NCBI RefSeq assembly: GCF_015155755.1
Contig: NZ_VWPI01000007.1
Span: forward strand, 1-64,000
From: Komagataeibacter sp. FXV3
GTDB taxonomy: Bacteria > Pseudomonadota > Alphaproteobacteria > Acetobacterales > Acetobacteraceae
DNA: 64,000 nt
Direction of reading: 5' to 3'
Shown: positions 13,489 through 40,990 of the stretch, one piece after another
Numbering within the stretch: position 1 is the stretch's first letter
Layout of the letters: each line of letters begins with the position of its first letter
The notes under the pieces: model-generated
What the model was told of the DNA's origin: nothing
Seen by the model: only the letters and a program-made list of their open reading frames with translations
The model's database searches: none
Translations under genes and position numbers: made by a program

Positions 13489-13507
13489 GCGTCGCCTTCC
13501 GGGCCAG

Positions 13508-14845: not shown

Positions 14846-14865
14846 GGTCCGTCAGCCGCACGCCC

Positions 14866-15687: not shown

Positions 15688-15784
15688 ATATGCAACCGGC
15701 CTTCCGGAATAAAGGCGCCACTACCGCCCGGGGCGATGGAGCTTTATAACATTACTTATTAATAACAATTTACAAAATGGCAGA

Positions 15785-26800: not shown

Positions 26801-29800
26801 CCAGCCCGCGCCGAACTTCAATGGTGACCCGTCGAACATCTCGTTTACGGCAACGGTGGTGGACAATACCGCCGCTCCCGCCTTTACCGGGGCGGATGGC
26901 AGGGCTGTGGCGGGTAATGCCATAACCGGCGTGGCAACAGGGGTTGATGTCAGCAACACCGGCGGTGGCACCGCACTTGATGGGGTGCCGGTGCAGGTGA
27001 GCACCAGCGTCACGCCGGTCAATGACGCGCCGGACGTTGTGGCCGACAACAGCGATCCGAATGCCCCCCCGGTCATGGGGAACCAGCCCGCCTCGTGGAA
27101 AGTGACGGAAGATACGCCAAAGGCAGAGAGCGTGCAGGAGCTGTTTGGCAGCTACTTCTCCGACCGGACCGACCAGCAGCAGAGTACCGCCAACCCCGAT
27201 GGTTCCACCGCCAACACCATGGCGGGCGTGGCGGTGGTGGGCTACACGCCCTCGGCTGCGGGCACATGGTCGTATTCGACCGATGGTGGCGGGACATGGA
27301 CGCCGCTTCCGGCGTCCGTTTCCACCACGAATGCGCTTGTGCTGTCGAAGGATGCCCAGCTGCAGTTTACGCCTGCGGCCAACTATAACGGCCAGCCTGT
27401 CAGTGGCGATGACCTCAGGGTCGTGCTGATCGACAGTTCGGACGCCGCATCGGGCAGCCCGGCCCTTGTGGGGGCGAACGGGCAGGCCCTGACCACGGCG
27501 GATGACACGCCGCTGACCGGTGCCGCGCTGGATTCCGGCACGATGGCGGTTGCGGGCGCCGATGTTTCGACCCGTGGCGGGCAGACCGCGCTCAGTGTGG
27601 GTACGGTTGACCTGTCCACGGCGGTCACACCGGTCAATGACCCGCCCACCATGGCGGCAGGCCCCTATGTGCTGCCTGATGTCACCTCGAACGGTGCTGA
27701 TGGCGCCAATACAGGCGCCACGATTGCAGGCCTGTATCCGGACAGTACGGTGCAGGACGGGACCGACGCGCGGCAGGGCGCGGCTGACCCCACCGGGTCC
27801 ACCGCCGACCATCTGGCTGGCGTGGCCATTACCGGCAATACGGCCAATCCCGCGACCGAGGGCACGTGGCAGTATTCCACCGATGGCGGCAAGACGTGGA
27901 CGGACGTGCCCGCCAATGTTTCGGGCAGCGATGCCGTGGTGCTTGGCGATCAGGCCAGGGTGCGCTTTGACCCCGTGCCGAACTTTACCGGCACGCCGGG
28001 CGGGCTGACCACGCAGGTTGTCGAGACTTCGGCCGACGTGCCGCTGACCGGCACCAGCAACGGCGTTGCCACCAGTGTTACGGGGCAGGCGCTTGCTGGC
28101 ACTGCCACGGCGCTGACGGGCGTGGACATAACCCAGATGCAGCATGACCACCCCAACGGGTCGGTCAGCACCAACAGCCAGCCGCTTGATGTCACGGTCA
28201 ACCCGGACGTGCATACGGCGGTAACCATTCCGCCCGGGCAGGAAGACCAGCCTGGCCCGAAGGAAACGGTCTCGCAACTGTTTACCACCACCGACCCGAA
28301 TGGTGTTGGCGGCGTTGCCATTACCGGCAATGCCACGCCTGCCAGCGAGGGGACATGGATGTATTCCGTACCCGGTGGCACGGCGCAGGCGCTGCCGACC
28401 GGTCTTTCGGCCACGAACGCGGTGGTGCTGCCGGGTGATGCGCAGGTGTGGTTCCAGCCCGCGCCGAACTTCAATGGTGACCCGTCGAACATCTCGTTTA
28501 CGGCAACGGTGGTGGACAATACCGCCGCTCCCGCCTTTACCGGGGCGGATGGCAGGGCTGTGGCGGGTAATGCCATAACCGGCGTGGCAACAGGGGTTGA
28601 TGTCAGCAACACCGGCGGTGGCACCGCACTTGATGGGGTGCCGGTGCAGGTGGGCACCAGCGTCACGCCGGTCAATGACGCGCCGGTTGCCACCGGCAGC
28701 GCCACGCTGCCCTCGGCTGATGCCAATAACCAGCAGGTCAGGGGCGATAGGATTTCCAGCCTGTTCGGACCGACTTTCTCCGATCAGGCCGACCAGCAGC
28801 GTAGTGCCTCCAATCCCGATGGCTCGGTGCCCGACCACCTGCAGGGCATTGCCATTGTGGGCAATACGGCCAACCCGGCAACGCAGGGTACATGGCAGTA
28901 TTCAACCAATGGGGGCAGGACATGGCATAATGTCAGCATCTCGGTTTCCGCCACGGCAGCCCTTGTGTTGCCTGCCAACGCGGAACTGCATTTTGCGCCC
29001 GTAACAGGCTTTACCGGCACGCCGGGCGGCCTGTCTGCCGCATTGGTCGAGACCAACAGCACGTTGGCCACGGGCACGGCGGCACAGGTGGCAGATGTTT
29101 CGGCATTGATGGCCGATGAGACCAGCCATGTTTCGCAGACTACGGTGGCACTGAACACAAATGTGACGCAGCAGGAGGGCAATCCCGCCCTTTCGGGCTC
29201 GACCCTCAACAATGACCTCAGTTCCTCTGACCTGCTCAAGACATCAGTGGAGGACGGGTTTGAGAACGAGTTCCAGCGTGGCTTTGGCGTTGCGCACCAG
29301 ACATGGATACGTGGCACGTCGCTCTACCGGTTTGTGACAACCAACCAGCAATATGATGTCGATGTGCCTGCCGGTGCCTTCAACAGTTCGGATGGAACGG
29401 ACCTCAACCTGACCATTACGGCACGCCAGGCCGGCGGTGCGCCATTGCCTGACTGGGTCTCGTTCGATGCGGATCGCCGCTGCTTTTCCATGATCGCGCC
29501 AGATGATGCCACGGGTTCCATCGACCTGACCCTTATCGGTCGCGATGAATATGGCCATGAGGCGGAAGTTGATGTGCATGTGGTGATCGGAAACGAACAT
29601 CCAGCATGGGAGATGGCCGATGATCCGTCCATTCCGCAGGCGGTGGACCGCGCGATGCATGTCGTGGAGCAGGACATGAACTGGCTTGCCTTCAACCCCG
29701 ATTTCCATCGCGGTGGCCATCACGTTGCCGAGCCAGCCCCCGGTAAAAAGGGACTGCGTGCACAGATGCGTCAGATCGGCCAGAGAGCAGCGCATGCACG

Positions 29801-29825
29801 CAGCCGTGATCTGGTCAATCACTGA
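17817..29825 (+). CDS. Giant DUF4347 repeat surface protein (adhesin-like)
   Basis: This is a 4002-residue protein. The N-terminus has no Sec signal but carries LEQRYLFDG (residues 5-13), close to the LEPR-type motif found at the start of other giant repeat proteins. DUF4347 follows at about 75-235 (DIVFVDSRVSDW, SFLTYGQAGQIELG, ILFWGCDVGQG). Residues about 430-1880 hold many DUF11/Ig-like units (for example VENTGSAGMYDLTVSGTLP). An SdrD-B-like unit is at about 1883-1990 (GQIWQALGNTPGIYDSAIDT). From about 2340 come at least eight units with a G-x-W-x-YS-x-DGG-x-TW signature, six of them in two nearly identical 551-residue blocks. Near the end is a cadherin-like domain (about 3840-3925), then a basic tail. 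I see no RTX GGxGxD repeats, LPxTG or autotransporter barrel. It is probably surface-exposed and exported by the divergent operon. Confidence 0.88.
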   Translation: MRLILEQRYLFDGSVAHVSHHHGADRYHHENQGENAHDAPVVDESVGSLPDLPATTGTGRSVHERDGSKKDNFTDIVFVDSRVSDWRELTATLGDNVGVVVVDNTRNGMSVVSRVLSHQQNLSSVSFLTYGQAGQIELGSTTINAATLMADITQVAQWGDALGTKGQILFWGCDVGQGAAGQALVEDLHTLTGAGVAASTDATGLGALGGDWTLERTAGLDGNAVDTPFSATAEAGYDSVLDSPTATVTIANAGDTSNLLGNAFSQTITFANNAQNGVGYAPFVEIFAPTNTAQQDTPLTSVTYLGQSLSTKAVTLVDVDGKIGAYNPYSSGTDGKPQFVTAPAGFKAGDTMYVVSLPFGSYTPNQPTLTLTANFANHTVESVDAPTGAGAPITIAAAGGYQYGADALNNPGTDPTIQGAAVTNTIDQNIVQVTAGIITSPRGEDEVPTGPDYPATYQVTVTPAEVTQANAIKDMTLNVTLPDSVNYNNSPITLTGADGSTISGTATYVPPADGSKEGGSVKVTLDSVAYSESAPYKIDIPVYVGQTDAAGNSILNSSGGTTSLTTISGATISYTGNWTPPVSDGQTATPVALDETVDTSPTTFQAKAFAVQETDTITNADGSAASLPAGQVMPGDTITHDIHIENSDYYSSTGMVVTTTLSDGQALQPGTNPTFTYTDATGTSHTVQLGSDYWSATPGDNGQTVVKMNIAQYLADNNLPAMGAGKQGTISYASTVSDNYSATNTPVTEGDTIGSQVSVSALATGPDGTISQVQDDSGSTLSVPEGSTGLKIVAINGVAVEGTDTPVIHAGDKVTYEATYTLQTGTYTDLNLSSYLPLPLYDTSNPTGNGDSAFTAAPSTDLTQQAAGTYSVVSVPNGVDPKQVTVSTQSATNSISFDMGNSDTLATSDAGKQVAMLFTLKATSSPFADGLSLTSQEQSTLTNGQNAQTAQSTLQSITVAEPAAEIKTGVVSVMNGTSADKSVTYAPQTTGEGTDTDPTTTFNAAGSDGGAYTSVPANGVSGLGAVNDLNATGAEGGDTVRIASTVENTGSAGMYDLTVSGTLPAGFSTADVRNFQITRPDGTIVYSSAADASTAASSYFTTGGLSIPATSATAAVLAQGQDLTITYDLALPTGQNLGDTLVANATVVNFGNSPSAVGQGDGFVTNGVPLGGQASDLTDPASVTLQTPTISKTISASNLPANDGVDAATSSGTIVSGETRTTTITVNVPEGTLTNGNGDVTVVETLPAGMDYAGGFVATLTGASASSVDASGNLPAPTPVRNADGTTTLTFDLGKTVTNSSSTPGTITLAYNGYYGENNAPADAATITSSAVLNYSVHDDTATVAEQAGPADVTVTERKPSLTETITDDTKGQALYSGQQVTYTLKLSNNGHVTAYDIDHAITLPSDLTGVTITGGGQTITVAAGQTSVALSTLASLAPTDAPVTYTITGTVASDLPAGTKLAVTDDYTWHSAPKSNEFMPPSGSPSGSGDAPVTPQDVPEAFNHTVGDAPAVGNFTSVLDIVGENNGTTSGISPTTPVTAADTVPGDRVTLQGEVSIPEGQNQDVTLTLKVPDNVQLDPTSLRLLLASPNGEITSSGIGSATQFTEGTTPALTVQGGGNTFTLTDAAEAALNGTGASITGVTTDSSGQTVLTINLGTVTNNDQSSVPNYAIIQVAGTVLNTTANQDGKTLPFSESLTASTSPTPASPISTPASTVSETVREPDVKLDKAVTAIDYTNDTVTFTDTLTNNGDAAAYDVALNDPLVAGQESVDGAVAASGAGTVDTTINASGNVAVADANGVTTNGLTLAAHASETVTYTVKLSDLTKGLAQTTTSVTWESLAGATPATSGGTAQSRDGSAGQEGTAGTNSADTYERSVTMGLGTLSGQIWQALGNTPGIYDSAIDTPLGGVGVTVAARGSDGTYATGLVQTGIQTDANGNYAALVPIYGTPTSSIAEITVPTKGGADGLPASETEVYNHDGAATSAITAVSPDADSANGMGATHADLAYELPDTAPTITGWQDITPHVTTAGAATAIGDGAVTVDDHELDTLTTKESGTYTYAGTMLTVQRYVDGKAAASATDSFGALAGSGVTMVGGQVSVNGTAIGTYTDKGGVLQFTFNASATKAGIATLAQDLTYTYTPTATDPATQLDVTLGATFSDGNTSLAGQQVTTGAQGTGGVQTSAPMFTHVSVGGTTFATTFAEPNDTPAAASATALGSYVSVEDASGTGTESIQKVTVQIGSATAQDVLAATTAGGITASMDSATGTLTLTAGTATTLKNWQSTLASLKYYDSSDTPIEGTRNVSISVYENGANTPIVTNGTIAVTAANDSPVLDPSAPVSLNDAQEDSLPPQGAVGTAVSQLAGYAGATGGAGNVTDPDGAGLTGQSVAGATSLPGIAITSADTTHGIWWYTTDNGKTWTEFAGSGAGSAVGGGNALHLIDNGQTRVYFQSTDPNWNGKVNDALTFRAWDQFDGAANGSISALPTTAGLGTGVNTPGSAYSSAADSVALMDDNVNDAPNVVADNSDPTATPVMGNQAASWKVTEDTPKAESVQELFGSYFSDRTDQQQSTANPDGSTANTMAGVAVVGYTPSAAGTWSYSTDGGGTWTPLPASVSTTNALVLSKDAQLQFTPAANYNGQPVSGDDLKVVLIDSSDAASGSPALVGANGQALTTADDTPLTGAALDSGTMAVAGADVSTRGGQTALSVGTVDLSTAVTPVNDPPTMAAGPYVLPDVTSNGADGANTGATIAGLYPDSTVQDGTDARQGAADPTGSTADHLAGVAITGNTANPATEGTWQYSTDGGRTWTDVPANVSGSDAVVLGDQARVRFDPMPNFTGTPGGLTTQVVETSADVPLTGTSNGVATSVTGQALAGTATALTGVDITQMQHDHPNGSVSTNSQPLDVTVNPDVHTAVTIPPGQEDQPGPKETVSQLFTTTDPNGVGGVAITGNATPASEGTWMYSVPGGTAQALPTGLSATNAVVLPGDAQVWFQPAPNFNGDPSNISFTATVVDNTAAPAFTGADGRAVAGNAITGVATGVDVSNTGGGTALDGVPVQVSTSVTPVNDAPDVVADNSDPNAPPVMGNQPASWKVTEDTPKAESVQELFGSYFSDRTDQQQSTANPDGSTANTMAGVAVVGYTPSAAGTWSYSTDGGGTWTPLPASVSTTNALVLSKDAQLQFTPAANYNGQPVSGDDLRVVLIDSSDAASGSPALVGANGQALTTADDTPLTGAALDSGTMAVAGADVSTRGGQTALSVGTVDLSTAVTPVNDPPTMAAGPYVLPDVTSNGADGANTGATIAGLYPDSTVQDGTDARQGAADPTGSTADHLAGVAITGNTANPATEGTWQYSTDGGKTWTDVPANVSGSDAVVLGDQARVRFDPVPNFTGTPGGLTTQVVETSADVPLTGTSNGVATSVTGQALAGTATALTGVDITQMQHDHPNGSVSTNSQPLDVTVNPDVHTAVTIPPGQEDQPGPKETVSQLFTTTDPNGVGGVAITGNATPASEGTWMYSVPGGTAQALPTGLSATNAVVLPGDAQVWFQPAPNFNGDPSNISFTATVVDNTAAPAFTGADGRAVAGNAITGVATGVDVSNTGGGTALDGVPVQVGTSVTPVNDAPVATGSATLPSADANNQQVRGDRISSLFGPTFSDQADQQRSASNPDGSVPDHLQGIAIVGNTANPATQGTWQYSTNGGRTWHNVSISVSATAALVLPANAELHFAPVTGFTGTPGGLSAALVETNSTLATGTAAQVADVSALMADETSHVSQTTVALNTNVTQQEGNPALSGSTLNNDLSSSDLLKTSVEDGFENEFQRGFGVAHQTWIRGTSLYRFVTTNQQYDVDVPAGAFNSSDGTDLNLTITARQAGGAPLPDWVSFDADRRCFSMIAPDDATGSIDLTLIGRDEYGHEAEVDVHVVIGNEHPAWEMADDPSIPQAVDRAMHVVEQDMNWLAFNPDFHRGGHHVAEPAPGKKGLRAQMRQIGQRAAHARSRDLVNH
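25368..27020 (+). repeat. 1653-bp intragenic tandem repeat, copy 1
   Basis: This is the first of two adjacent copies with a period of exactly 1653 bp (551 codons, residues about 2518-3068). It contains three related subunits of about 180 residues, each with a version of the G-x-W-x-YS-x-DGG-x-TW motif. By eye it differs from copy 2 at only about eight or nine amino acids, including a PTATP/PNAPP cluster near the start and single changes Lys/Arg, Arg/Lys, Met/Val and Ser/Gly. Confidence 0.9.
27021..28673 (+). repeat. 1653-bp intragenic tandem repeat, copy 2
   Basis: This is the second copy of the 551-codon block (residues about 3069-3619), joined directly to the first. Both copies begin at the shared AATGACGCGCC, which occurs a third time at 28674 where the final single unit starts. 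The near-identity at the DNA level suggests recent duplication or gene conversion. Confidence 0.9.
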
Positions 29826-30416: not shown

Positions 30417-31008
30417 GTCCGTTTGATGCTTTCGCAGGGATTTGGTGATCTTGGCCAGCGTAAATCGTGCTTTTTTTATGGTCCGTCTCCAGTGGACAGA
30501 TCAAACTTTAAATCGAGGGCATTTCAGGAAGTTAAGGTCAAGCACGTCAAGGGGGGACTGCGCGAGACGGATTTTAATAGACGGTTATCTGCCCCCATGG
30601 GCTGTTACTCAGACTATACCACCATATCTACACCGTTCCCTGGAACCAGGGAAAAATCACACATTACACGTATCTAGACGATAATGATAAATAAACTTGT
30701 TTATTTTTCTAATATATTAAATTATAATTGTAATTAATTCGATATACTTAAGTTATTTTCTGGTTTCTCGCAATAAATATACGTCGGTTAAAGACAGATT
30801 TCCTTATCCTGCGATATGTGGATCCAAAGTATATTTTGGACATAACTTTTCAGTAAAATCAATATATTGCATAAAATATGAAATTTATATGAACACATAT
30901 TATATTGCTGTAATTCGTGATATATTATTCTTAGTAATATGAATGTTGGAAAACTTTCTGGTATCGCGCAAACGTAGGACGTCATCTTGATTAGAATGAC
31001 TTATCTTC
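30417..31008. other. AT-rich spacer upstream of the FecI gene
   Basis: This contains no recognisable gene. From 30680 on it is strongly AT-rich and probably carries the sigma-factor promoter. The stretch GATAATGATAAATAAAC (30680-30696) resembles half of a Fur box but lies about 310 bp before the gene, so I treat it as weak. Confidence 0.45.
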
Positions 31009-31491
31009 ATGGCTGAATGGGTAAAGCGTCAGTCCCGATGGTTTTCGCTATCATCCAAAATCCGGCAGCGGACAGGTTCTGAGGATTCCGATGATCTGTT
31101 ACAAACTGTCCTTCTGCGTCTGCTTGAACGGGGGGTGACACATATCCAGCATGCCGAATCCTATATTCTGAAATCTGCCCACAACGCTGCTCGTGACGAA
31201 AACCGGCGAACACGCTGTCTGCCCTGTAGCCCGTTGCCGGATGAAGGATGGGACAATATTGAGTGCCCAAATCCCTCTCCTGATGAGGTATTCCTGTCGC
31301 GTGAGCAGCTTGTGATATTACAGGACGCGATACAGGATCTTGATCCGTCTACGCGCGAGATTTTTCTGCTTCATCGGATCCAGGAACTATCCTATAGCGA
31401 GATTTCGCAAAAATTGGGGTATAGCGTCAGTAAAGTGGAAAAGCATATCAGTAAGGCGCTTGCGTTCCTGACAAGTCGCCTGTTGGACTAA
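31009..31491 (+). CDS. FecI-like ECF sigma factor
   Basis: This is a 160-residue extracytoplasmic-function sigma-70 factor. Region 2 lies at about residues 10-65 (SEDSDDLLQTVLLRLLE, then AESYILKSAHNAARDENRR). Region 4 is at about 100-155 (DAIQDLDPSTREIFLLHRIQELSYSEISQKLGYS, then KVEKHISKALAFL). That the next genes are a FecR anti-sigma factor and a TonB receptor with an STN domain identifies it as the FecI type, activated by a cell-surface signal. It should direct RNA polymerase to the receptor gene and probably the genes after it. The FecR start follows by 5 bp. Confidence 0.88.
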   Translation: MAEWVKRQSRWFSLSSKIRQRTGSEDSDDLLQTVLLRLLERGVTHIQHAESYILKSAHNAARDENRRTRCLPCSPLPDEGWDNIECPNPSPDEVFLSREQLVILQDAIQDLDPSTREIFLLHRIQELSYSEISQKLGYSVSKVEKHISKALAFLTSRLLD

Positions 31492-31496
31492 CTTCA

Positions 31497-32402
31497 ATGA
31501 TATCAGTTTTGCATGAAACTGCAGCGCGCTGGGTCGCGCGGCTGCAGGCGGATGATTGTTCCGTTCAGGACCGGACTGCCTGTCAGGCGTGGCTGGACGA
31601 GCATCCTTCTCACAAACAGGCTTTTTATCTGGTGCAGGCCGTATGGAAGCATAGTAGCGTTGTACCTGCATCTCCTGTCATGGCGTCTCCCATAGCGCAT
31701 CGTCGCATGACACGACGTGGGTTGGTTGCCGGTCTTGCAGCAGGTATCGGTGTACTGGCGCTAGCGCCACGGAAGACCGAAGCATCGGTTGTCAGCACGT
31801 CGATCGGTCAAAAAATCAACCTGTCTGTCCGAAAAGGCGTTGACCTGCTGATAGATAGTGACAGTTCGGTTGGGCTGGCGCCGCGCAATACCTGTATTGA
31901 CCTTTATTATGGCCAGATCGAAATAAAAATGGCGCAGCAGGCAGCCGCCTTTGCGACAGAGATGGGCACGTGTCATCTGCTATCTCAGGAAGGGCATTTC
32001 AATGTCCGTCACATGGAGGACAGCCGCACGATTACCGTTCTGGATGGGGTCGCCACGTTACATACTGGTCCTCAACATCCGGCTTATCGTCTTGCCGCAG
32101 GACAGCGTGCCACAATTACGCCGGGCGATGCTGTCGTGATTGATACGCCCCGGCTTGATGATATCATGGCGTGGCGTACGGGACGGCTTTCATTTCGGGA
32201 TACGCCGCTCTCCACTGTCGTGGCTGAAATGAACCGCTATTCCACTCAAAAAATTATCCTTAACGGTAATAGTACGGGAGACCTGCGCGTAAGCGGATAT
32301 TACCATTTTGGGAATAATGAAAATTTTTCCCGTGTTCTTGAGAAAATACTACCGGTTCACGCCGTGATTGGTCCGTCCATAACTATTATGAAGGTTTCAT
32401 GA
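31497..32402 (+). CDS. FecR-family anti-sigma/transmembrane regulator
   Basis: This 301-residue protein has an N-terminal DUF4880-like cytoplasmic part (AARWVARLQADDCSVQDRTA, CQAWLDEHPSHKQAF) that should hold the sigma factor. A membrane helix follows at about 77-92 (GLVAGLAAGIGVLALAP). The periplasmic FecR domain spans about 100-210 (CHLLSQEGHFNVRHME, VLDGVATLHTG), and the C-terminal secretin/TonB-like segment about 225-300 (MAWRTGRLSFRDTPLSTVVAEMNRYS). That end normally touches the STN domain of the receptor. Gene order and spacing match fec-type signalling operons. Confidence 0.9.
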   Translation: MISVLHETAARWVARLQADDCSVQDRTACQAWLDEHPSHKQAFYLVQAVWKHSSVVPASPVMASPIAHRRMTRRGLVAGLAAGIGVLALAPRKTEASVVSTSIGQKINLSVRKGVDLLIDSDSSVGLAPRNTCIDLYYGQIEIKMAQQAAAFATEMGTCHLLSQEGHFNVRHMEDSRTITVLDGVATLHTGPQHPAYRLAAGQRATITPGDAVVIDTPRLDDIMAWRTGRLSFRDTPLSTVVAEMNRYSTQKIILNGNSTGDLRVSGYYHFGNNENFSRVLEKILPVHAVIGPSITIMKVS

Positions 32403-32495
32403 CATCATCACTGCATGGATGAGGGGGCATCCGTTTCATTCGTCTTATGGGTAGGTCGCACAATTGGAACCACATCTGCTGGGGATCCCTACCTT

Positions 32496-35045
32496 ATGTC
32501 TCGCTTCATGCCATGTTTCCGTCATTCCTTATTTGCCGCTACCGGTAGTATCGGACTTACCGCCCTGTCCTCCAGCGTCTTTGCAACTCCTTTGCTATCC
32601 GTACACCTGCCTGCACAAAGGCTGGCACTTTCGCTAACGGAGTTATCGCGCCAGAGCCAGCGCGACATCCTGTTTTCTGTAGCTGATATTGGCGATCGAA
32701 TGGCACTCCCAGTTGACGGTTCCATGACATTTGACGATGCCCTGGGGCGCCTGACACAGGGTTCAAACCTGCAGATCATACGTCAGCCCGATGGAACGGT
32801 TCTGATTACGCCTCAGGCAACGGTGCGGGACAACAAACATGCTGCCCGACATACGCCTGTCAGTTCGCCTGGCGCTGCGCCGCAGGAAAACTTGATCGTG
32901 CTGGGAACAGGACAGTCACGACAGGTCCAGACACTTTCCAGCGCTGAACTTCACAAGACAGCGCCGGGTACATCGCCACTGGCAACCCTTTCGGAGCTAC
33001 CGGGGGTTAACTTCCAATCGTCCGATCCATTGGGTGCTTATGAATGGGCACAGCAGATAACGGTACGTGGTTTTTTTACTGACCAGCTTGGCTACACCAT
33101 GGATGGTGTCCCGTTGGGCAACATGGATTACCGCAATAACAACGGATTGGCGATTGGACGGGCCCTGGAAAATGAAAATAACGGTCCCGTTACGCTAGCG
33201 CAGGGTACCGGGGGATTAGGCACGGCCTCCACCAGCAACCTTGGTGGGACAATCCAGTTTACTTCAGTCAATCCCACTGATCGGTTCGGGATAGATGTGA
33301 GCGGTTCGATTGGCAGCGCCACCACGTCGCGCGGATTTATCAAGGTCAATAGCGGCCTGCTGCCGGGAGGCGGCAAGTTCTACGTCAGCTATGATTATCA
33401 GTTCGCGGACAAGTGGAAGGGATGGGGACAGCAGCGCCAGCAGCAGCTGAATTTCAAATATGTTCAACCTCTGGGCGAACATGTCAAAGCCACGACTTTT
33501 CTGGATTTTGATGACCGGAGGGAAGATGATTATCTCGACGTATCGCTGAATCTTATTAACCGTCTCGGTTATAATCAGGACGATATAAGCAATAATTACA
33601 AACTGGCGGAACAGATTGCCCGCGCATCACAGAACGGGCAGACGCTTCCTGCCCCGTATCGCACGGCAGACGATACCTATTATCGAGGCGGCGCGGTCCG
33701 ACAGGATGTGTTGGGATATGAGAAATTTCAGTACGATATTATTCCCCACCTGTCTGGTTCCACCACTATTTATGGTCATTATGACCGGGGACCGGGAACG
33801 TGGGCTGATCCTTATGATCCGACGCCTTCGGCTCTGGGTGGATCACCCCTGTCTGTATCGACGACCGAATATGACATGCACCGTGAGGGCGTGATCTCTA
33901 ATCTTATGTATCGTATTGCCCATCATAAGATCGAAACCGGTTTCTGGTTTGAAAATAATCTTTTCGAGCAGGCAGCCAAGCTCTATCCATTGCAGGCCGG
34001 TGTGGCACCTACCAGTTTTGAGAAGTTCTATTCCAATCCATTCGACGTGCAGTGGCAATATGCGTTTCGCACCCATGTATATCAGTTTCATCTGGAAGAT
34101 ACATGGGCCATTACCCCGCACCTGCGCCTGAATGCAGGGTTCAAGTCCCTTGTTTCAAACAGTTCTGTCGAGACAATCCAGAGTTACAATCCCATCAATG
34201 CATCCATCTCGGCTGCAGATGGCTTCCTGCCGCAGGCGGGACTACTTTATACCATTGATCGACATAATGAGGTTTTTGGGGATTTTGCGCAAAATATGGC
34301 CGCCTACAAGGCATCCGCCGCAACGGGGCCGTTCTCCACTACGCAGGCAGGGTTTGCATATATCCACAACAATCTTCGTCCCGAAAAGACCACCACCGGA
34401 GAAATAGGGTACCGTTTCCATAATGCAAACCTGCAGGCATCGCTTACGGGGTATTATGTTGATTTTACCAATCGCCTGCTGACATCCTCGGTCAGTATTG
34501 ACCTGGTGGGAAACCAGAACATTCTGGAAAACGTGGGTAGCGTGACATCACGTGGCGTGGAAGCCGCGATCAACTGGAAGTTCTACCGCAACTGGTCGTT
34601 CTACGGGACATGGTCTTATAACGACGCGCATTATAATGACAATGTTGGCGTTCCCGGTAGCAGCACGATCCTTCCCATTGCAGGAAAGCAGGTGGTCGCC
34701 ACACCACGAAATATCGGCAACTTCAAGATTTCTTACGATGATGGCAGCATATGGGGACAGTTTGGCGGACAATATATGAGCCGACGGTTTTATACATATC
34801 TTAATAATTCACCCATTCCTGGCCGAATCATTTTTAACCTTTCTGGCGGTTACCGTTTCCATGGACGAGGCTGGAAAAATGGTCTTGAAATGCAGCTAAA
34901 CCTCGTCAACCTGTTCGACAAGCAGTATATATCAAGTATCGGTACAAACGGATTTGAAAACTCAGACCCGGATGGCAGCTTCCAGACATTGCAGGTAGGG
35001 GCACCACGACAGGTATTTTTTACCGTCCGGAAGCATTTTTTCTGA
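32496..35045 (+). CDS. TonB-dependent receptor with STN signalling domain (FecA type)
   Basis: This is 849 residues from ATG 32496. The frame opens at 32415, but the later start puts the signal peptide (SIGLTALSSSVFA) at the N-terminus. The STN domain, which talks to FecR, spans about residues 40-105 (LSLTELSRQSQRDILFSVAD, DALGRLTQGSNLQII). The plug follows (about 140-270, ATLSELPGVNF, TVRGFFTDQLGYTMDGVPLG), then a 22-stranded barrel ending in an aromatic residue (FFTVRKHFF). The substrate is not given by the sequence. The phosphatase genes downstream make a phosphorylated compound as plausible as a siderophore. Confidence 0.88.
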   Translation: MSRFMPCFRHSLFAATGSIGLTALSSSVFATPLLSVHLPAQRLALSLTELSRQSQRDILFSVADIGDRMALPVDGSMTFDDALGRLTQGSNLQIIRQPDGTVLITPQATVRDNKHAARHTPVSSPGAAPQENLIVLGTGQSRQVQTLSSAELHKTAPGTSPLATLSELPGVNFQSSDPLGAYEWAQQITVRGFFTDQLGYTMDGVPLGNMDYRNNNGLAIGRALENENNGPVTLAQGTGGLGTASTSNLGGTIQFTSVNPTDRFGIDVSGSIGSATTSRGFIKVNSGLLPGGGKFYVSYDYQFADKWKGWGQQRQQQLNFKYVQPLGEHVKATTFLDFDDRREDDYLDVSLNLINRLGYNQDDISNNYKLAEQIARASQNGQTLPAPYRTADDTYYRGGAVRQDVLGYEKFQYDIIPHLSGSTTIYGHYDRGPGTWADPYDPTPSALGGSPLSVSTTEYDMHREGVISNLMYRIAHHKIETGFWFENNLFEQAAKLYPLQAGVAPTSFEKFYSNPFDVQWQYAFRTHVYQFHLEDTWAITPHLRLNAGFKSLVSNSSVETIQSYNPINASISAADGFLPQAGLLYTIDRHNEVFGDFAQNMAAYKASAATGPFSTTQAGFAYIHNNLRPEKTTTGEIGYRFHNANLQASLTGYYVDFTNRLLTSSVSIDLVGNQNILENVGSVTSRGVEAAINWKFYRNWSFYGTWSYNDAHYNDNVGVPGSSTILPIAGKQVVATPRNIGNFKISYDDGSIWGQFGGQYMSRRFYTYLNNSPIPGRIIFNLSGGYRFHGRGWKNGLEMQLNLVNLFDKQYISSIGTNGFENSDPDGSFQTLQVGAPRQVFFTVRKHFF

Positions 35046-35085
35046 TTTTGTTTTCTGTGCATACTGAAATGACAAGGCCTAGAAT

Positions 35086-36021
35086 ATGACACTACTTTCT
35101 CGTCGTAAAATTCTGTCGGGTGGCGCCGGGATCGTGGCGGCTTCGTGGGTTGACAGCACGATGGCACGACCCGCCGCGGCTGCCGTGCCGGAATCGTTTT
35201 CTTTTCTGTTCATCACGGATACACACCTCCAGCCTGAACTGGATGCACAGAAAGGATGCCGGATGTGCTTTCGCGCAGCGGCAAGGGAAAAGGCTGATTT
35301 CGTGCTGCAGGGCGGCGATCATGTTTTTGACGCCATGGATGTATCTCTTGAGCGGGCAAACAGAATTCTTGATCTGTATGAAATGACCGAGCAGGAGATT
35401 GGCAAGAAAATATATCACACGGTCGGGAATCATGACTGCTTTGGCGTATATGCCAGTAGTGGTGCATCCGTGAATGATCCCGAATTTGGCAAGAACTACT
35501 TCCGTCGCGCTTTTGGAGAAACCTATTATGCCTTTGTGCATAAGGGAGTTCATTTCATCGTTCTGGATTCAGTCAATATAACGCCAGACCGGGATTATGA
35601 AGGACGGATTGATGCGCAGCAGGTCGCATGGCTGAAAAATTACCTTTCCGTATTGCCTGCGGGCACACCATTGATTATTTCCACGCATATTCCGCTGGTT
35701 ACCGCATTTTATACATATGCGGACGAAAGTCCGTCGGCATTCAAGCATCAGGCGATGAGTACGGTAAATACCCGTGAGATTATTGACCTGCTACATCCTC
35801 ATAATGTCCTGGCTGTATTTCAGGGACATACACACGTTCTTGAACGGGTCATTTCCCATGATATTCCCTTTATTACAGGAGGGGCCGTAAGTGGAAACTG
35901 GTGGCAGGGCACCCATCTTGGTACGCCAGAAGGCTACATGGTCGTGCATGTTGACAGCACGGGCGTGCGGACCGATTATAAAACTTACGGCTTCAAAAGT
36001 ACAGATCCAAAGAATACATAA
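35086..36021 (+). CDS. Tat-exported calcineurin-like metallophosphoesterase
   Basis: This 311-residue enzyme starts with a twin-arginine signal (SRRKILSGGAGIVAA), so it is exported folded. All metal-binding motifs of the family are present in order: D-x-H (FITDTHL), GGDHVFD, VGNHDC, a histidine in ISTHIP, and GHTH (FQGHTHVLERV). It should hydrolyse phosphomonoesters or diesters in the periplasm using two metal ions. It begins 40 bp after the receptor gene and is likely co-transcribed. Whether its substrate enters through that receptor is inference. Confidence 0.88.
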   Translation: MTLLSRRKILSGGAGIVAASWVDSTMARPAAAAVPESFSFLFITDTHLQPELDAQKGCRMCFRAAAREKADFVLQGGDHVFDAMDVSLERANRILDLYEMTEQEIGKKIYHTVGNHDCFGVYASSGASVNDPEFGKNYFRRAFGETYYAFVHKGVHFIVLDSVNITPDRDYEGRIDAQQVAWLKNYLSVLPAGTPLIISTHIPLVTAFYTYADESPSAFKHQAMSTVNTREIIDLLHPHNVLAVFQGHTHVLERVISHDIPFITGGAVSGNWWQGTHLGTPEGYMVVHVDSTGVRTDYKTYGFKSTDPKNT

Positions 36022-36228
36022 TATTTTTTCATCCCGACGAAAGTCGGCTACGGATGTTTTTCGGGTGAATGACATCGGTGTGGCCATGAAAATATATGAA
36101 ACGCCGCGGCAAAATCACCAGCGTGTATTGGGGTCTGACTATATCGTGCCTTGCCGCGGTATCGTAACATTGGTCTGGTTCAGGGCCGGAGGCCCCTTGT
36201 GAGCTGGCAATGGAGGGCATGGCGTGTG

Positions 36229-37470
36229 ATGTTCCGGTCGCGTCGGCCAGGTTTTTATGGCCTGATCCTGTGGGCTTTTGTCGCGGGTATAATGACCCCG
36301 CCCGGTTTGGGGCACGGTGCGCAACCGACCGTTCTCTCGCGTCCAGAGGCCCGTGCCCGGGCACGGGCGTTGACCACGCTGGGGCGTGACCTGTTCCATG
36401 ATCCGCGCCTGTCTGCTTCGGGTCAGATGGCCTGCGCGACATGCCACGTGGAGAAGGACGCTTTTGCACAGGATAACGACCTCTCGGTGCAGAAAGGCGG
36501 CCACCGCGCGGTGCCGTCGCTTAAATACCTGCAGGCCGTGCCCCAGTTTACTGAGCATTTCTATGATTCCGAGGACGAGGCCGAGGAAAGCATGGATAAC
36601 GGTCCCACAGGTGGACTGACATGGGATGGACGGGTGGATACCGCGCAGGCGCAGGCCGGGATTCCGCTGCTTGCCCCGTACGAGATGGCCAATGTCAGTC
36701 GCGCGGAAGTCGTGCGTCATGCCCTTGCCGCCGGTTACGGGCCGCGCCTGCGATCCCTTATGCTGGCAGGGGACGAAAATAATGCACGGTTTGGCCTGAT
36801 TGCGGAAGCCCTTGCCACCTACCAGCAGGATGCCCGGCTGTTCTATCCTTACAGCAGTAAATACGATGCCGTTCTGGCAGGCAGGGCGCAGCTTTCCCCA
36901 CAGGAAGAGCGCGGACTACACCTGTTTGAACGGAAGGACAAGGGTAACTGTGCCTCCTGCCATGTCAGCGCGCAGGGGCATGATGGCACGCCACCGCAGT
37001 TTACCGATTATGGGCTGATTGCACTCGGCGTGCCGCGCAACAGCCAGATCATGCTTAATCATAACCCCGATTACTACGATATGGGCCTGTGTGGCCCGGA
37101 TCGCACGGATATGCAGGGTCACCCGGAATATTGCGGGCTGTTCCGCACGCCTTCACTGCGCAATGTAGCAACGCGGCATGTCTTTTTCCACAACGGCGTG
37201 ATCCATTCACTCAGGCAGGCGGTCGCGTTTTACGCGCTGCGTGATATGCGCCCTGACATATGGTATCCAACCGGTTTGGACGGCAAGGTGCGGATATATG
37301 ACGACCTGCCCGTACAATACCATGGCAACATTAACATGGACCCACCCTTCGGCCCGCGTCCCGATAACCGGCCCGCGCTGGATGATGACGAAATTGATGC
37401 CATTGTCGCCTTCCTCCGTACCCTGACCGATGGTTATTTCGCCTCCGCAGGGGCAGCCCGCGCTCCGTAA
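36229..37470 (+). CDS. Di-heme cytochrome c peroxidase / MauG-family protein
   Basis: This is 413 residues from ATG 36229, chosen because GGAGGG precedes it by 11 bp and a signal helix follows (YGLILWAFVAGIM). Upstream TTG or GTG starts would add residues before that helix. Two c-type heme sites are present: CATCH at residues 69-73 and CASCH at 241-245, in the arrangement of bacterial di-heme peroxidases. The conserved FRTPSLRNVA and FFHNGV blocks near residues 305-325 support this. It should act in the periplasm, reducing peroxide or oxidising a protein partner. It is an odd neighbour for phosphatases and may be a separate transcription unit, 207 bp after the phosphatase gene. Confidence 0.85.
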   Translation: MFRSRRPGFYGLILWAFVAGIMTPPGLGHGAQPTVLSRPEARARARALTTLGRDLFHDPRLSASGQMACATCHVEKDAFAQDNDLSVQKGGHRAVPSLKYLQAVPQFTEHFYDSEDEAEESMDNGPTGGLTWDGRVDTAQAQAGIPLLAPYEMANVSRAEVVRHALAAGYGPRLRSLMLAGDENNARFGLIAEALATYQQDARLFYPYSSKYDAVLAGRAQLSPQEERGLHLFERKDKGNCASCHVSAQGHDGTPPQFTDYGLIALGVPRNSQIMLNHNPDYYDMGLCGPDRTDMQGHPEYCGLFRTPSLRNVATRHVFFHNGVIHSLRQAVAFYALRDMRPDIWYPTGLDGKVRIYDDLPVQYHGNINMDPPFGPRPDNRPALDDDEIDAIVAFLRTLTDGYFASAGAARAP

Positions 37471-37489
37471 AGCCTGGAAGGGCCAGGCT
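37471..37489. terminator. Bidirectional terminator hairpin between convergent genes
   Basis: A perfect 7-bp stem AGCCTGG/CCAGGCT with a 5-base loop starts right after the peroxidase stop and overlaps the last codon of the opposing phosphoesterase gene. Only a short T/A tract follows, so it is a modest intrinsic terminator in both directions. Confidence 0.6.
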
Positions 37490-39038
37490 ATTTCGTGCGG
37501 CCGGACAGGTCCAGCGCTCCCGTCAGGTCGCCAAGCTTCTGGCCTGTTGCGGCCTGTATGGCCTTATCCCGGGTCACCACGCCGTCCAGCGGGCGCAGAT
37601 GAAAACGTTCGGTCAGGAATTTCAGGATGGATGTCGTATCCTGCACACTGTGGTCCACATAGGCCCGCTTTGCGTAGGGGGAGATGATAATGGCGGGAAT
37701 GCGGGAGCCGGGTCCCCATCTGTCGCCTTTGGGTGGAGCGACATGATCCCAGAGTCCACCATTTTCATCATAGGTTACGACAACCAGCATGTGCGGCCAC
37801 TGGGGGCTTTTTTCCAGATGGGCGACTAGATCGGCAATGTGATGGTCGCCCGACTGGATATCAGCATATCCGGAATGTTCATTCAGATTGCCTTGTGGCT
37901 TATAGAAGGAAACTTGCGGCAGGGTGCCGCGGTCGATCGCATCAATGAAGCCAGCGCCCCCGAGACCACCATCACGCAGGTGCTTGCGCCGCGCCTTCCT
38001 GCCTGGTGCATAACGGACATAGTAATTATACGGCTGGTGATGGTACTGGAAGTCCGGGGCTGGATAATGGTTGCCATGTTCCAGAACATCATTCCACGCG
38101 CCAGCATACCACGCCCATGTTATGCCGCGCCGGCTTAGTCTGTCGCCGATTGTTGGCGCTGACTGCGCGGGCATGGTGGTGGGTTGCATCGGATCGGCAT
38201 AGGCTGCGTTCTGCCCGACCGCGGCGGAATTATAGCTGGGCTGGTATGGCGGTTGCATCGTGTTGACGGCGTAGAAATCCGGCGTGAGATTTCCGTCACG
38301 CACGAATTTGGGTATGCCATCCATCGCAGAACGCGGCGATGCAGGACTGATGAGCAGTGCCGTGCCCGATGCATCAACGGCTGAAATGACGGGCTGTGCT
38401 GGGCTGGTATCTGCGTGAGGGTAATAGGGTGCGCAGGCACAGGCCAACCACTGGTGGTTAAGGAATGAGCCGCCAAACGTCCCCATGAAGAAATGATCGG
38501 CCAATGTGTATCGGCGCGCGATCTCCCACATCTCCATATGTGAACCATCCCAGTAGCTCATGGGAAGCGCGCCGGAATCCGCCCATGCGACAAACATGTC
38601 GTTCCGTCCCGCGTCAATCTGCATCTGGTTCTGGTAGAAGCGATGCCACAGGTCCTGTGTCAGGGTGCTGAGTGGTCTGTTGAAACCCTGCGGATCATCT
38701 ATGCGAAAAGGCTTGTTGGGCAGGTGGGCGCTTATAGCCTGCGTAATCGGGTTGGGCACGCCGCGGGCCGTGAGGCCGCCCCATACAGGCGGTAGTTCAC
38801 GCAATATGCTGCCGTCACGGTCGTGCTGCAGCCACTGGCTGCGGGGTTCATTCGCAAAAGTGTCAGCGCCAGGGAAACCATTGTACAGATTATCAAAAGA
38901 ACGGTTTTCTGCAAAGATAACTACAACCGTTTTAATCTGTTTCAGTTTTGCAGGTGCAGAAGCCCGGCTTCCGACCGACAGGGCCATTATTCCCGCCAGT
39001 GCAAGCATGGAAGCGGTTATGTTGGTTTGGTAGGCCAT
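37488..39038 (-). CDS. AcpA-type acid phosphatase / phosphoesterase family
   Basis: This is a 516-residue exported enzyme with a Sec signal (residues 1-27, ending SRASA). The alkaline-phosphatase-superfamily fold of the phospholipase C/AcpA branch shows in VVVIFAENRSFDNLYNGF (residues 38-55; the Asn or Glu pair binds metal) and ADHFFMGTFGGSFLNHQWL. It also shows in VTYDENGGLWDHVAPP with GPGSRIPAIIISPYAK near the C-terminus. It hydrolyses phosphomonoesters or phospholipid head groups in the family. It is convergent with the FecIR/TonB/metallophosphatase set and shares the scavenging theme. A 12-bp palindrome, CTGACGCGTCAG (39052-39063), lies 14 bp before its start codon and may be an operator. 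Confidence 0.87.
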   Translation of the reverse strand: MAYQTNITASMLALAGIMALSVGSRASAPAKLKQIKTVVVIFAENRSFDNLYNGFPGADTFANEPRSQWLQHDRDGSILRELPPVWGGLTARGVPNPITQAISAHLPNKPFRIDDPQGFNRPLSTLTQDLWHRFYQNQMQIDAGRNDMFVAWADSGALPMSYWDGSHMEMWEIARRYTLADHFFMGTFGGSFLNHQWLACACAPYYPHADTSPAQPVISAVDASGTALLISPASPRSAMDGIPKFVRDGNLTPDFYAVNTMQPPYQPSYNSAAVGQNAAYADPMQPTTMPAQSAPTIGDRLSRRGITWAWYAGAWNDVLEHGNHYPAPDFQYHHQPYNYYVRYAPGRKARRKHLRDGGLGGAGFIDAIDRGTLPQVSFYKPQGNLNEHSGYADIQSGDHHIADLVAHLEKSPQWPHMLVVVTYDENGGLWDHVAPPKGDRWGPGSRIPAIIISPYAKRAYVDHSVQDTTSILKFLTERFHLRPLDGVVTRDKAIQAATGQKLGDLTGALDLSGRTK

Positions 39039-39051
39039 GTTTTCTCGGTCT

Positions 39052-39063
39052 CTGACGCGTCAG
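39052..39063. promoter_or_regulatory. 12-bp palindrome before the AcpA-type gene
   Basis: CTGACGCGTCAG is a perfect palindrome 14 bp upstream of the phosphoesterase start on the minus strand, where a repressor would block initiation. It could also arise by chance. Confidence 0.3.
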
Positions 39064-39489
39064 CGTAAAAATTTATAGGTCATACGGCATAGAAAGTACG
39101 GTATATGGAATAAGCAGGGATAGAATGGAATGCGAGGAAAACGGATTTCATAAAAATTTCACGTTATCTATTCTTAATAATATATCTGAATGACAATTTT
39201 TTTTGTATCGTAATATTCGGAAATTTAGACGTTTTAAATCTTTCCAAGAGTTGGGGATTTTGGCGTATTTATATTATAACATCGACTATTTTGTAATTTT
39301 CTTTTATTTGTAATGGTTTTTTTAGATTTTTAGTAAAAATGCGGATGGGGCGGTATGGTTTAAGCTATAGTTTATGAAGGCAGGTAAAGGATTTTCTCCC
39401 CAGGCAAGAACATATTGTTGGCGGAGTGGCTGTAAATACCCGCCGGTTTATTGTGTCGGTGTTCCCTGACGTGATCTGCGAGTTTGCTT
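39064..39489. other. AT-rich spacer
   Basis: This contains no gene. It is very AT-rich between about 39160 and 39340 and probably includes the promoter of the phosphoesterase gene on the minus strand. The last 100 bp may include more eroded IS5 sequence. Confidence 0.45.
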
Positions 39490-39800
39490 TGGCAATTGCA
39501 GCAATGGCTACGCCGCTGGTGCGAAAGCGGAGTGATCGAACCGATCTCCTGATACCAGGCAACGGATCACAACAATGAATATATGATAAGTGACAGCACG
39601 ATTGTTCGTGCGCACCAGCATAGCATGGGGCCTATAAGAAGCAGCGCGGATCAAACCGCCGGACGAACCCGTAGTGGACTGATCACCAAAAATCTACGCG
39701 ATTGTCGATACTGCGGGAAAGGTTGCTATCATGTTTCTGACGGTCGGTCAGTGTACAGATATCATCGACGCAGAGTTTTTGTTAGCATTACGGTTGCATT
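39490..39800 (+). pseudogene. IS5-family transposase remnant
   Basis: Scattered frames recall an IS5 transposase. They are RRWCESGVIE near 39510, then SDSTIVRAHQHS and DQTAGRTRSGLITK (39588-39690), then AIVDTAGKVAIMFLTVGQCTDIIDAEFLLA (about 39695-39785) in another frame. Stops and frameshifts break it, and both ends are missing. It is older than, and different from, the IS5-family copy that begins at 39836. Confidence 0.75.
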
Positions 39801-39835
39801 TTATGGTGCGAATGAGCAGGGATAGCGCTGGCTGG

Positions 39836-40684
39836 GGTCCGATCGACATTCAGGATCTTCTTTTTTTGGAACGGATGTTTCACTGGGCACCGTGTCAGAG
39901 CAGGGAGTGTGGGATGGGAATCAAGCGGTACGAGTTGAGTAAAGCACAATGGCAACAGATTGCGCCTGTGCTCCCGGGCAAAGTTGGGGATGCAGGCCGC
40001 AGTGGGACGGATAACCGCCTGTTCGTGAACGGCTGCCTCTGGATTCTACGCTCTGGCGCGCATTGGAAGGACCTGCCTGAGCGGTATGGCAAATGGAAGA
40101 CGGTGCATCGTCGTTTCAGCAGATGGTGTCATGCCGGGGTATGGGACAGGATTTTCGAGATACTGATGGCTGATCGGGACAATGAGTATCTGATGTTCGA
40201 TTCAACGATCGTTCGTGCCCATCAGCAGGCTGCAAACGGAAAAGGGGGGGCAAGGACCAGGCGCTGGGGCGTTCCAGAGGTGGTCTGACGATCAGGATCC
40301 ATATGCCGGCCGATACGCTGGGCCGCCCGCTGCGCTTCATTATTACGGCCGGGCAGGTCGGCGATGTCACCCATCCGCAGGCTCTGCTCGCGGGGCAGGA
40401 AGGGCTGCTGTTATTGCCGACAAGGCCTATGACAGCAATGCATTACGCGTCCTTGTTGCCCAGATGGGCGCAGAAGCTGTCATACCTTGCAATCGCACCC
40501 GCAGGATTGTCATGCCGCACGATACCAGAGCCTACAGGCTGCGCAATCGTATCAAGCGCTGCTTCAACCGCCTAAAGCATTTCAGACGCTTCGCTACCCG
40601 ATATGACCGACGTGCCATCCATTTCCTTGGCTGTGTTCACCTCGCCTCAGCCATGATCTGGGTGGCCTGAATGTCGATTGGACC
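39836..40684 (+). mobile_element. IS5-family insertion sequence (IS427-like), about 850 bp
   Basis: The ends carry nearly perfect 19-bp inverted repeats: GGTCCGATCGACATTCAGG at 39836-39854 and its complement with one mismatch at 40666-40684. The single transposase gene lies between them in two designed frames. The size fits the IS427 group. I cannot define the target duplication with confidence. Confidence 0.85.
39914..40670 (+). pseudogene. IS5-family transposase, -1 slippery site plus a disabling frameshift
   Basis: The first frame (39914-40288) gives the DUF4096-type start (YELSKAQWQQIAPVLPGK, GCLWILRSGAHWKDLPERYG) and the first DDE Asp in FDSTIVRAHQ. At AAAAGGGGGGG (40240-40250) the homology moves to the -1 frame (KDQALGRSRGGLT, then GRPLRFIITAGQVGDVTH). 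This is the programmed frameshift expected in this group. A second shift at GGG 40402-40404 moves it again to AVIADKAYDSN, ending at 40670 with the NRIKRCFNRLKHFRRFATRYD block. Restoring one G there would rejoin the frames. So the copy looks inactivated by a one-base loss, unless that is a sequencing error. Confidence 0.8.
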
Positions 40685-40990
40685 TGATATTACCAGGCCG
40701 TGCCGTCTCGTCCCGAAAAAAGATCATTGTCGGTTTTCGCCGTCAGCCCATCTGCAGTCTGGTAGTCGCTTCCGAACGTCGTTGAAATACGATACGGTCT
40801 CGTCTATGTAACCCGTAACGGCTGCGTCGTGTCGCCGGGTTCAGGAAATGGCTGAGGGTGGTCGGTATCCATGCAAACCAGACATACTGGTAGTGAAGGC
40901 GTGAACCATGTGCAGACTGCCTCCTTCCTCGCCACCATTTTTCATCCTGTAACGCAGGGGGAAGGCAGCGTACCGCCGGACCCGCAGGCC
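40685..40990. other. Spacer before the RND drug-pump operon
   Basis: This contains no gene apart from the possible upstream extension of the adaptor frame from 40871, which I consider untranslated. It probably carries the pump promoter. No TetR operator palindrome is obvious to me. Confidence 0.4.

Follow-up and report, generated by a model that had tools for sequence, protein, structure and literature searches.

A surface-signalling TonB receptor block with a metallophosphoesterase beside an AcpA/di-heme enzyme pair in Komagataeibacter: a candidate locus for phosphate-ester uptake

The DNA analysed here, referred to as the window, is a stretch of 64,000 nucleotides from Komagataeibacter sp. 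FXV3 (contig NZ_VWPI01000007.1, positions 1–64,000 of the forward strand). At 31009–39038 it contains six intact open reading frames (ORFs), and their domain scores confirm the gene set that an earlier reading of the sequence (the original prediction) had given, namely FecIR/TonB genes, a Tat-type metallophosphoesterase, a di-heme enzyme and an AcpA-type phosphatase. An extracytoplasmic function (ECF) sigma factor of the FecI kind (31009–31491, plus strand; TIGR02937, 72.8 bits with a cut-off of 42.9) is followed on the same strand by a FecR-like regulator (31497–32402) with a DUF4880 domain (48.1 bits) and one membrane-like stretch recognised by eye, a TonB-dependent receptor with an STN-like signalling domain (32415–35045; barrel 121 bits, plug 31.6 bits), a Tat-type exported metallophosphoesterase (MPE), probably a phosphodiesterase (35086–36021; PF00149 58 bits, MetallophosC 31.5 bits), and a BthA-like di-heme CCP/MauG enzyme with a predicted inter-heme tryptophan (36229–37470; CCP_MauG 107.7 bits). 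The AcpA-type exported acid phosphatase lies on the minus strand (37488–39038; TIGR03397, 788.8 bits with a cut-off of 362.75).

The Sigma70_r4_2, DUF4880, TonB barrel, TonB plug, Metallophos, CCP_MauG and Phosphoesterase (PF04185) domains score above their Pfam cut-offs, and FecR (18.6 versus 24 bits), FecR_C (20.3 versus 24.4) and the STN domain of the receptor (24.5 versus 28.4) score below. The locus proteins do not reach the FecI, FecR and FecA equivalog cut-offs (46.2 of 260, 87.9 of 385 and 54.6 of 1100 bits, respectively). The top NCBIfam model of the receptor is a siderophore receptor at 89.5 bits, under its cut-off of 223.5. The receptor ORF opens at 32415, and its leader suggests a start at Met28 (32496); the di-heme ORF opens at a TTG (36151), and its likely start is the ATG at 36229, which precedes the leader. 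The twin-arginine leader (SRRKIL) and the Sec-type leaders were assigned by eye. The sigma and FecR genes are separated by 5 nt, FecR and the receptor by 12 nt to the ORF start or 93 nt to Met28, the receptor and the MPE by 40 nt, and the MPE and the di-heme gene by 207 nt (to ATG 36229). The di-heme and AcpA genes are convergent and 17 nt apart.

As judged from sequence comparison, the locus is composed of two modules. Module 1 (31009–36021) has the order ECF sigma factor, FecR, STN-type TonB receptor and Tat-type MPE, and module 2 (36229–39038) holds the di-heme and AcpA genes. This grouping is firmer than chance, because the first four genes recur elsewhere in the same order and the last two recur as neighbours. 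Specifically, the order of module 1 is also found in two genomes of another genus (L023 and L024, close relatives), with a receptor 68% and an MPE 75% identical to those of the window. No CCP or AcpA gene adjoins these two orthologous loci; in one of the genomes (G123), about 15 kb away on the contig of module 1, there is a relative of the CCP next to a PF04185 gene. The junction between the modules lies at 36018–36334. DNA similarity to the MPE relatives stops at 36017, similarity to Komagataeibacter CCP loci, which are the nearest named ones, starts at 36334, and the GC fraction rises from about 0.49 to 0.59 across the junction. At E 1e-20, 20 of 200 family genomes, among them that of the window, have a match to the MPE. 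For two of the 21 MPE matches outside the window, a receptor match is no more than 1.5 kb away, and for one (L009) there is a weak AcpA-type match. PHO4-type transporter genes are found about 6 kb from the lone MPE relatives L030 and L041 (2 of 20 MPE stretches).

The receptor belongs to a clade with a distinctive neighbourhood. Among 299 family genomes, with up to three candidates scored per genome, its relatives comprise two at 70% identity and 27 at 52–56%, 25 of the latter being kept as loci. A phosphocholine-specific phospholipase C adjoins the receptor on the same strand in 16 of these 25. The set was completed to 33 members with the window, L044 and L045 (MPE), L093 and L100 (phospholipase C) and three plasmid records. 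A phosphodiesterase neighbour is present in 24 of the 33, namely an MPE in three, a phosphocholine phospholipase C in 20 and an ENPP phosphodiesterase in one; related genomes in these counts are non-independent. Among 18 control receptors, which are less similar (34–38% identity) and were hand-picked from the next matches, only one has such a neighbour (L234; Fisher P 3.9e-6). Phospholipase C was assigned by annotation or by likeness to that of L093 (789 bits, cut-off 580), a clade copy in the window's own genome. The ENPP enzyme is on a plasmid of Novosphingobium aromaticivorans, and phospholipases C are on those of N. capsulatum and Gluconobacter oxydans, the Gluconobacter receptor being 55% identical. 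When the loci are grouped by genus, a phosphodiesterase neighbour occurs at least once in 11 of 15 groups (27 loci, with the MPE loci, L046, L093 and L100 left out). The clade, chosen by similarity beforehand, is monophyletic (32/32, support 0.999) in a midpoint-rooted FastTree tree with 20 other receptors, from which the iron-type receptor of L269 is absent. The gene neighbourhoods suggest that the clade receptors usually have an exported phosphodiesterase partner downstream, of one of three unrelated kinds, and that they probably import phosphoesters. In this way, a candidate phosphoester-importing clade of TonB receptors is named in Acetobacteraceae and Novosphingobium; the best model here is a siderophore receptor. 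Receptors of the surface-signalling kind are usually taken as iron importers; this family looks tuned to phosphate compounds.

We inspected the control sites, scoring Fur and Pho sites against consensus sequences. The three other FecI genes found in the window's genome, at FecR loci, have Fur sites that score 16/19, 14/19 and 14/19 and lie at most about 130 bp away; 0, 4 and 3 of 500 shuffles were as good (two of the stretches ran slightly into the ORF). No Fur box was found in the 250 bp before the window sigma gene, where the best site (11/19) was matched by 491 of 500 shuffles, nor at the two orthologous loci (best 9/19). A GATAATGATAA-like stretch at 30680 reached 13/19 and was dropped as a Fur box, being equalled by 66 of 200 shuffles of 710 bp. 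The best Fur-box-like site of the window (16/19, 1093–1111) immediately precedes the ORF at 1135, after which come a TolC-type gene and a large ORF of RND size.

Pho sites were accepted at a shuffle P<0.05 in 350 bp, the P values of these many tests being uncorrected. Of the 27 clade receptors counted, which do not include L046 and L100, 14 have such a site, as against one of the 18 controls (Fisher P 0.0013); the best site is 13/14, nine of the 14 are located 86–115 bp before the ORF, and 8 of 15 genus groups are represented. As a positive control, a PstS-type gene of the same genome (PF12849, on C50) has two overlapping 12/14 sites upstream, and a second PF12849 gene (on C155) has no listed site. 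Genome-wide, the pattern gives 55 matches with up to two mismatches versus 12 for the reversed pattern, and the whole window has 15 matches with up to three mismatches versus 5.3 expected. The site of the window receptor (32388–32405, minus strand) is 90 bp before the likely start at 32496 (shuffle P 0.021 in 300 bp), and, on the opposite strand, L023 and L024 each have an 11/14 site some 87 bp upstream of the receptor ORF (P 0.024 and 0.035). The site in the window suggests that phosphate starvation may also act at the receptor. Four of the window matches (11/14 each) occur within less than 500 bp at 32388–32863, which none of 1000 shuffles of this stretch equalled. The cluster was not used as evidence, being a post hoc observation with three of its sites in coding sequence; only the site before the receptor was used.

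The MPE has the metal-site motifs TDTH, GGDH, GNHD, H201 and GHTH, and the ligand residues are invariant in 21 sequences. A sequence search of the PDB gave no match at E 0.001. The AlphaFold2 model has a predicted local distance difference test score (pLDDT) of 81.7, with residues 1–30 poor. Its nearest folds are Rv0805 (Z 24.5, root mean square deviation 3.0 over 233 residues) and GpdQ (Z 24.1, 2.5 over 227 residues), which are tied; sphingomyelinase-like and purple acid phosphatases follow at Z of about 20–22. The modelled MPE shares with Rv0805 and GpdQ the calcineurin fold and the residues of the binuclear metal site, and its activity class is predicted from these. The model makes a diesterase likelier than the other classes, which fits the other partners of the clade, and the common fold leaves the substrate unfixed. 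The original prediction had also raised iron from a phosphate-rich ligand such as phytate. That part found no backing, since the profile scans gave no phytase family and the nearest folds are the two diesterases; a purple-acid phytase is in the fold list as only one among many calcineurin folds, and phytate was rejected as a candidate.

For module 2, the gene neighbourhoods identify the di-heme enzyme as the conserved partner of AcpA. In a pair scan of genome contigs covering the best 80 of at least 556 di-heme relatives, AcpA adjoins the di-heme gene at 70 loci, divergently at 66 and convergently at four (three Komagataeibacter and Acetobacter cibinongensis), and the genomes of the remaining ten loci all have AcpA elsewhere (10/10). 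The adjoining loci span Alpha- and Betaproteobacteria plus two Acidobacteria bins. Distance matrices of AcpA and the CCPs correlate with r 0.958 over 71 pairs, the best of 500 permutations reaching 0.18. In 200 family genomes, matches to AcpA (E 1e-80) and to the CCP (E 1e-40) occur together in eight, in six of them side by side. The partners of more distantly related CCPs are other PF04185 phosphoesterases, mostly encoded upstream in the same orientation, as in 8 of 9 extra Burkholderiales loci (L213–L221). The partner type follows the CCP tree, requiring 14 changes versus a shuffled minimum of 32, in a set of 128 rows that includes duplicates (L202–L212 duplicate loci or genomes of the pair scan, and L284 duplicates L266) and 15 rows without a partner. 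This set labels seven loci as convergent; the orientations given above are those of the pair scan, to which the convergent pair of the window is to be added.

Francisella AcpA (2D1G) matches the window AcpA at E 9e-26, and Ser191 aligns with its chain position 175, which we take to be the nucleophile. Nucleotides are likely one substrate class of AcpA, because in A. cibinongensis the pair adjoins genes for an RNase T2, a nucleoside permease and two nucleoside hydrolases. We looked for AcpA residues that mark a di-heme partner and found 43 positions separating 71 partnered from 16 lone sequences; they were set aside, as the groups differ in length and identity and descent may explain the difference. 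A comparison of the second partnered family with AcpA gave no convincing common redox residue, and a modified residue is not proposed.

The best solved relative of the di-heme enzyme is BthA (6NX0, E 7e-66). The axial Tyr361 aligns with BthA Tyr463 and is kept in 81 of 81 sequences. Cys314 and Cys328 match, as residues, BthA Cys415 and Cys430, which form a surface disulfide there, and are likewise found in 81/81. Arg342 is at the position of BthA Lys444, in place of calcium (Arg in 54 and Lys in 27 of the 81). Between the hemes, Trp158 is present in 81/81, including all 80 relatives, and the serine of the BthA type was not encountered among them; in a more mixed di-heme set, tryptophan is found in 31 of 32 rows and Gln in L213. 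The equivalog of MauG proper (TIGR03791) is not matched (82.1 versus 443.85 bits). The B. multivorans orthologue of BthA (L285, a single case) scores 711 bits to 6NX0 and has the inter-heme serine and a calcineurin-like phosphatase upstream. Two other di-heme genes on the same replicon have PF04185 partners. That the BthA partner phosA is itself a PF04185 enzyme was considered and ruled out by the calcineurin-like neighbour, in agreement with the label in the paper.

In Escherichia coli, the FecIRA system has a sigma factor, a regulator and a receptor together; the window locus differs in having no Fur box and no equivalog match and in having a downstream phosphoesterase. In the passages on Flavobacterium PUS I–IV (PMC8115612), TonB receptors are co-located with periplasmic phosphodiesterases or phosphatases and induced by phosphate depletion, PUS II has a FecR-like regulator, and a MauG-like gene is induced together with phoX. 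The same co-location of receptor and phosphodiesterase/phosphatase is present, as genes, at the window locus. The Flavobacterium systems differ in being SusCD-like complexes and TonB transporters of Bacteroidetes, whereas the window has a sigma gene before FecR; no SusD-like partner was found among the eight ORFs scanned at 31009–42088. The PUMA3 system of Pseudomonas aeruginosa (VreA-VreI-VreR), as described in the text on it, is also a sigma/anti-sigma/receptor-like system and is expressed under phosphate limitation with PhoB, but VreA is termed receptor-like and the system controls virulence functions (PMC4971064), whereas the receptor in the window has a complete barrel and a phosphoesterase gene downstream. 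The Caulobacter PhoB regulon includes TonB receptors, phosphodiesterases and a phospholipase C, and the passages on it mention no surface-signalling trio (PMC11208175).

For module 2, the account of Burkholderia BthA and phosA describes a Tyr-ligated di-heme enzyme with a Cys pair, a positive residue for calcium and an adjoining exported phosphatase (PMC6405878), as here. The differences are the serine between the hemes there and tryptophan here, and the calcineurin-like partner in the B. multivorans orthologue versus a PF04185 AcpA. According to the same account, the inter-heme residue is Trp in MauG and Ser in BthA, the S257W variant of BthA still forms bis-Fe(IV), oxidation of the phosphatase partner by BthA is conceivable, and the job of BthA-like enzymes is an open question (PMC6405878). 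Flavobacterium phoX is in an operon with the MauG-like fjoh_2477; PhoX is a lipoprotein of another phosphatase family and another phylum (PMC8812569). As the phosphatase on its own was inactive in P. putida, the authors consider that it may depend on the MauG-like neighbour, and name faulty expression as another possible cause (PMC8812569). The pairing of a phosphatase with a di-heme enzyme is therefore already published for two groups, and what is added here is how widely it occurs, the pairing with AcpA and the Trp subclass; our literature search found no paper on these three. As a tentative generalisation, for which we claim less than even confidence, Tyr-ligated MauG/BthA-like enzymes could be general companions of phosphatases. 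Each subclass would have co-evolved with one exported phosphatase (AcpA/PF04185, calcineurin-like phosA, or PhoX-like in print) and would be needed to mature it or keep it active under phosphate starvation. The window locus would then join such a pair to a phosphoester receptor that is now under a Fec-type trio in a clade otherwise looking Pho-controlled. The pairing in 70 of 80 relatives, the matching distances and the different phosphatase folds make the role of BthA-like enzymes directly testable.

We consider it moderately probable that module 1 serves surface-signalled uptake of a phosphate ester and module 2 is a phosphatase/di-heme pair, with a possible joint route of diesterase and then monoesterase action. 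An extracellular phosphodiester would bind the STN-type receptor, upon which FecR would free the sigma factor, and the receptor would bring the compound into the periplasm. There, the Tat-exported MPE would cut it to a phosphomonoester, and AcpA would free phosphate from monoesters. The BthA-like enzyme may serve AcpA through an oxidative maturation step, or through peroxide or redox control. Together the modules would form a diesterase-then-monoesterase path to free phosphate. A phosphate ester is favoured over iron as the ligand of module 1 because of the phosphodiesterase neighbours of the clade, the Pho-like sites and the missing Fur box, and the suggestion of the original prediction that a phosphorylated compound is taken up gains from the same evidence. 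The locus is a case of a Fec-type trio that appears to sense something other than iron. Ferric-chelate uptake as in Fec systems, with the phosphatases as bystanders or stripping phosphate from an iron-phosphate ligand, would account for the Fec-like parts list and the siderophore receptor model, but three other FecI/FecR loci of the genome have the Fur boxes that the window locus lacks, and the receptor clade is accompanied by phosphodiesterases and Pho-like sites; we regard it as quite improbable. It also seems unlikely that organic phosphates are scavenged chiefly as sources of carbon or nitrogen (choline, nucleosides, glycerol). Support for this reading comes from the partner phospholipases C, from a HAD protein that follows the phospholipase at two loci and matches 4GXT and, weakly, phosphorylcholine phosphatase 4AS2, and from a carnitine 3-dehydrogenase near one locus. 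Half of the clade members tested have a Pho-like site and one member adjoins a PHO4 transporter, which argues for phosphate instead.

Several observations weigh against phosphate-ester uptake by two cooperating modules. Nine of the 33 clade members have no phosphodiesterase neighbour (L046, L048, L051, L053, L065 and L067–L070; near L065, a phospholipase C gene lies about 3.7 kb further along and on the other strand, at L237). The control neighbours were screened only with the query phosphoesterases, a set that held no ENPP, and a 34% identical receptor in L023, outside both clade and controls, adjoins a glycerophosphodiesterase. The sigma factor is about 30% and FecR 23–24% identical between the window and L023/L024. 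The Pho-box search proposed with the original prediction gave a divided answer: the receptor is preceded by a site in an enriched clade, yet this site reaches only 11/14, none was found before the sigma gene (best 10/14), and L093, the clade copy in the same genome, is without one (9/14, 236 bp). For module 2, of the 24 family genomes that have a relative of AcpA, 16 gave no CCP match at the threshold used, so that AcpA can occur alone. The GC and homology break separates the receptor block from the AcpA pair, and their cooperation may be chance. The block is beside the pair in 0 of 80 pair loci, whose flanks (up to 6 kb) gave no receptor, MPE, FecR or sigma match above 50 bits. With the di-heme enzyme belonging to AcpA, the single grouping of all genes in the original prediction does not hold, and that interpretation as a whole is partly supported. 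The modules may indeed be unrelated chance neighbours, with module 1 a phosphodiester scavenger and module 2 a general phosphatase serving nucleotide salvage in some relatives. We take this as a serious possibility short of an even chance, given the break, the IS5 remnant nearby and the nucleoside genes beside the A. cibinongensis pair. Two single cases count weakly in the other direction: the CCP and PF04185 genes on the module 1 contig of G123, and another genome (G218), where a stretch of 10 kb (L101) contains a clade receptor, a phospholipase C, a PHO4 phosphate transporter and a PF04185/di-heme pair. The latter grouping makes cooperation of the modules plausible. It is rather doubtful that the di-heme enzyme acts solely in H2O2 detoxification, as an ordinary periplasmic peroxidase, with co-regulation as its tie to AcpA. 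BthA, its closest studied relative, does turn over H2O2 (PMC6405878), but the partner subfamily tracks the di-heme subfamily, albeit with some loci counted twice, and no genome of the best 80 loci has the enzyme without AcpA, which is more specific than a general scavenger needs.

Several further features were noted at the locus and in related genomes. The sensing pair (sigma 31009–31491, FecR 31497–32402) differs from that of L023 and L024 far more than the receptor and the MPE do, which may reflect fast divergence or replacement. Genome G218, which holds the L101 cluster, also carries a stop-bearing receptor fragment (G218:C175:62381-63103) that is 70% identical to the window receptor and is perhaps the remnant of a module 1. 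Both flanks of the locus are AT-rich (30500–31499 and 38500–39999, GC about 0.42–0.47 per kb). To the right of module 2 is a broken IS5-type transposase remnant in two frames (39731–40670, plus strand; DUF4096 98.5 bits for the first piece), given for context only. Directly upstream of the locus, a repetitive protein of 4002 residues is encoded at 17817–29825 (plus strand), and the minus-strand genes at 11383–17446 include one for a 701-residue protein that scores 151 of 300 bits, below the cut-off, with a daptide intramembrane metalloprotease model. On its right, the locus is followed by an efflux operon (40871–46591, plus strand), which in the congeneric G184 is close to a receptor–phospholipase C locus (L097); it looks as though the phosphoester module at this site had been exchanged for another.

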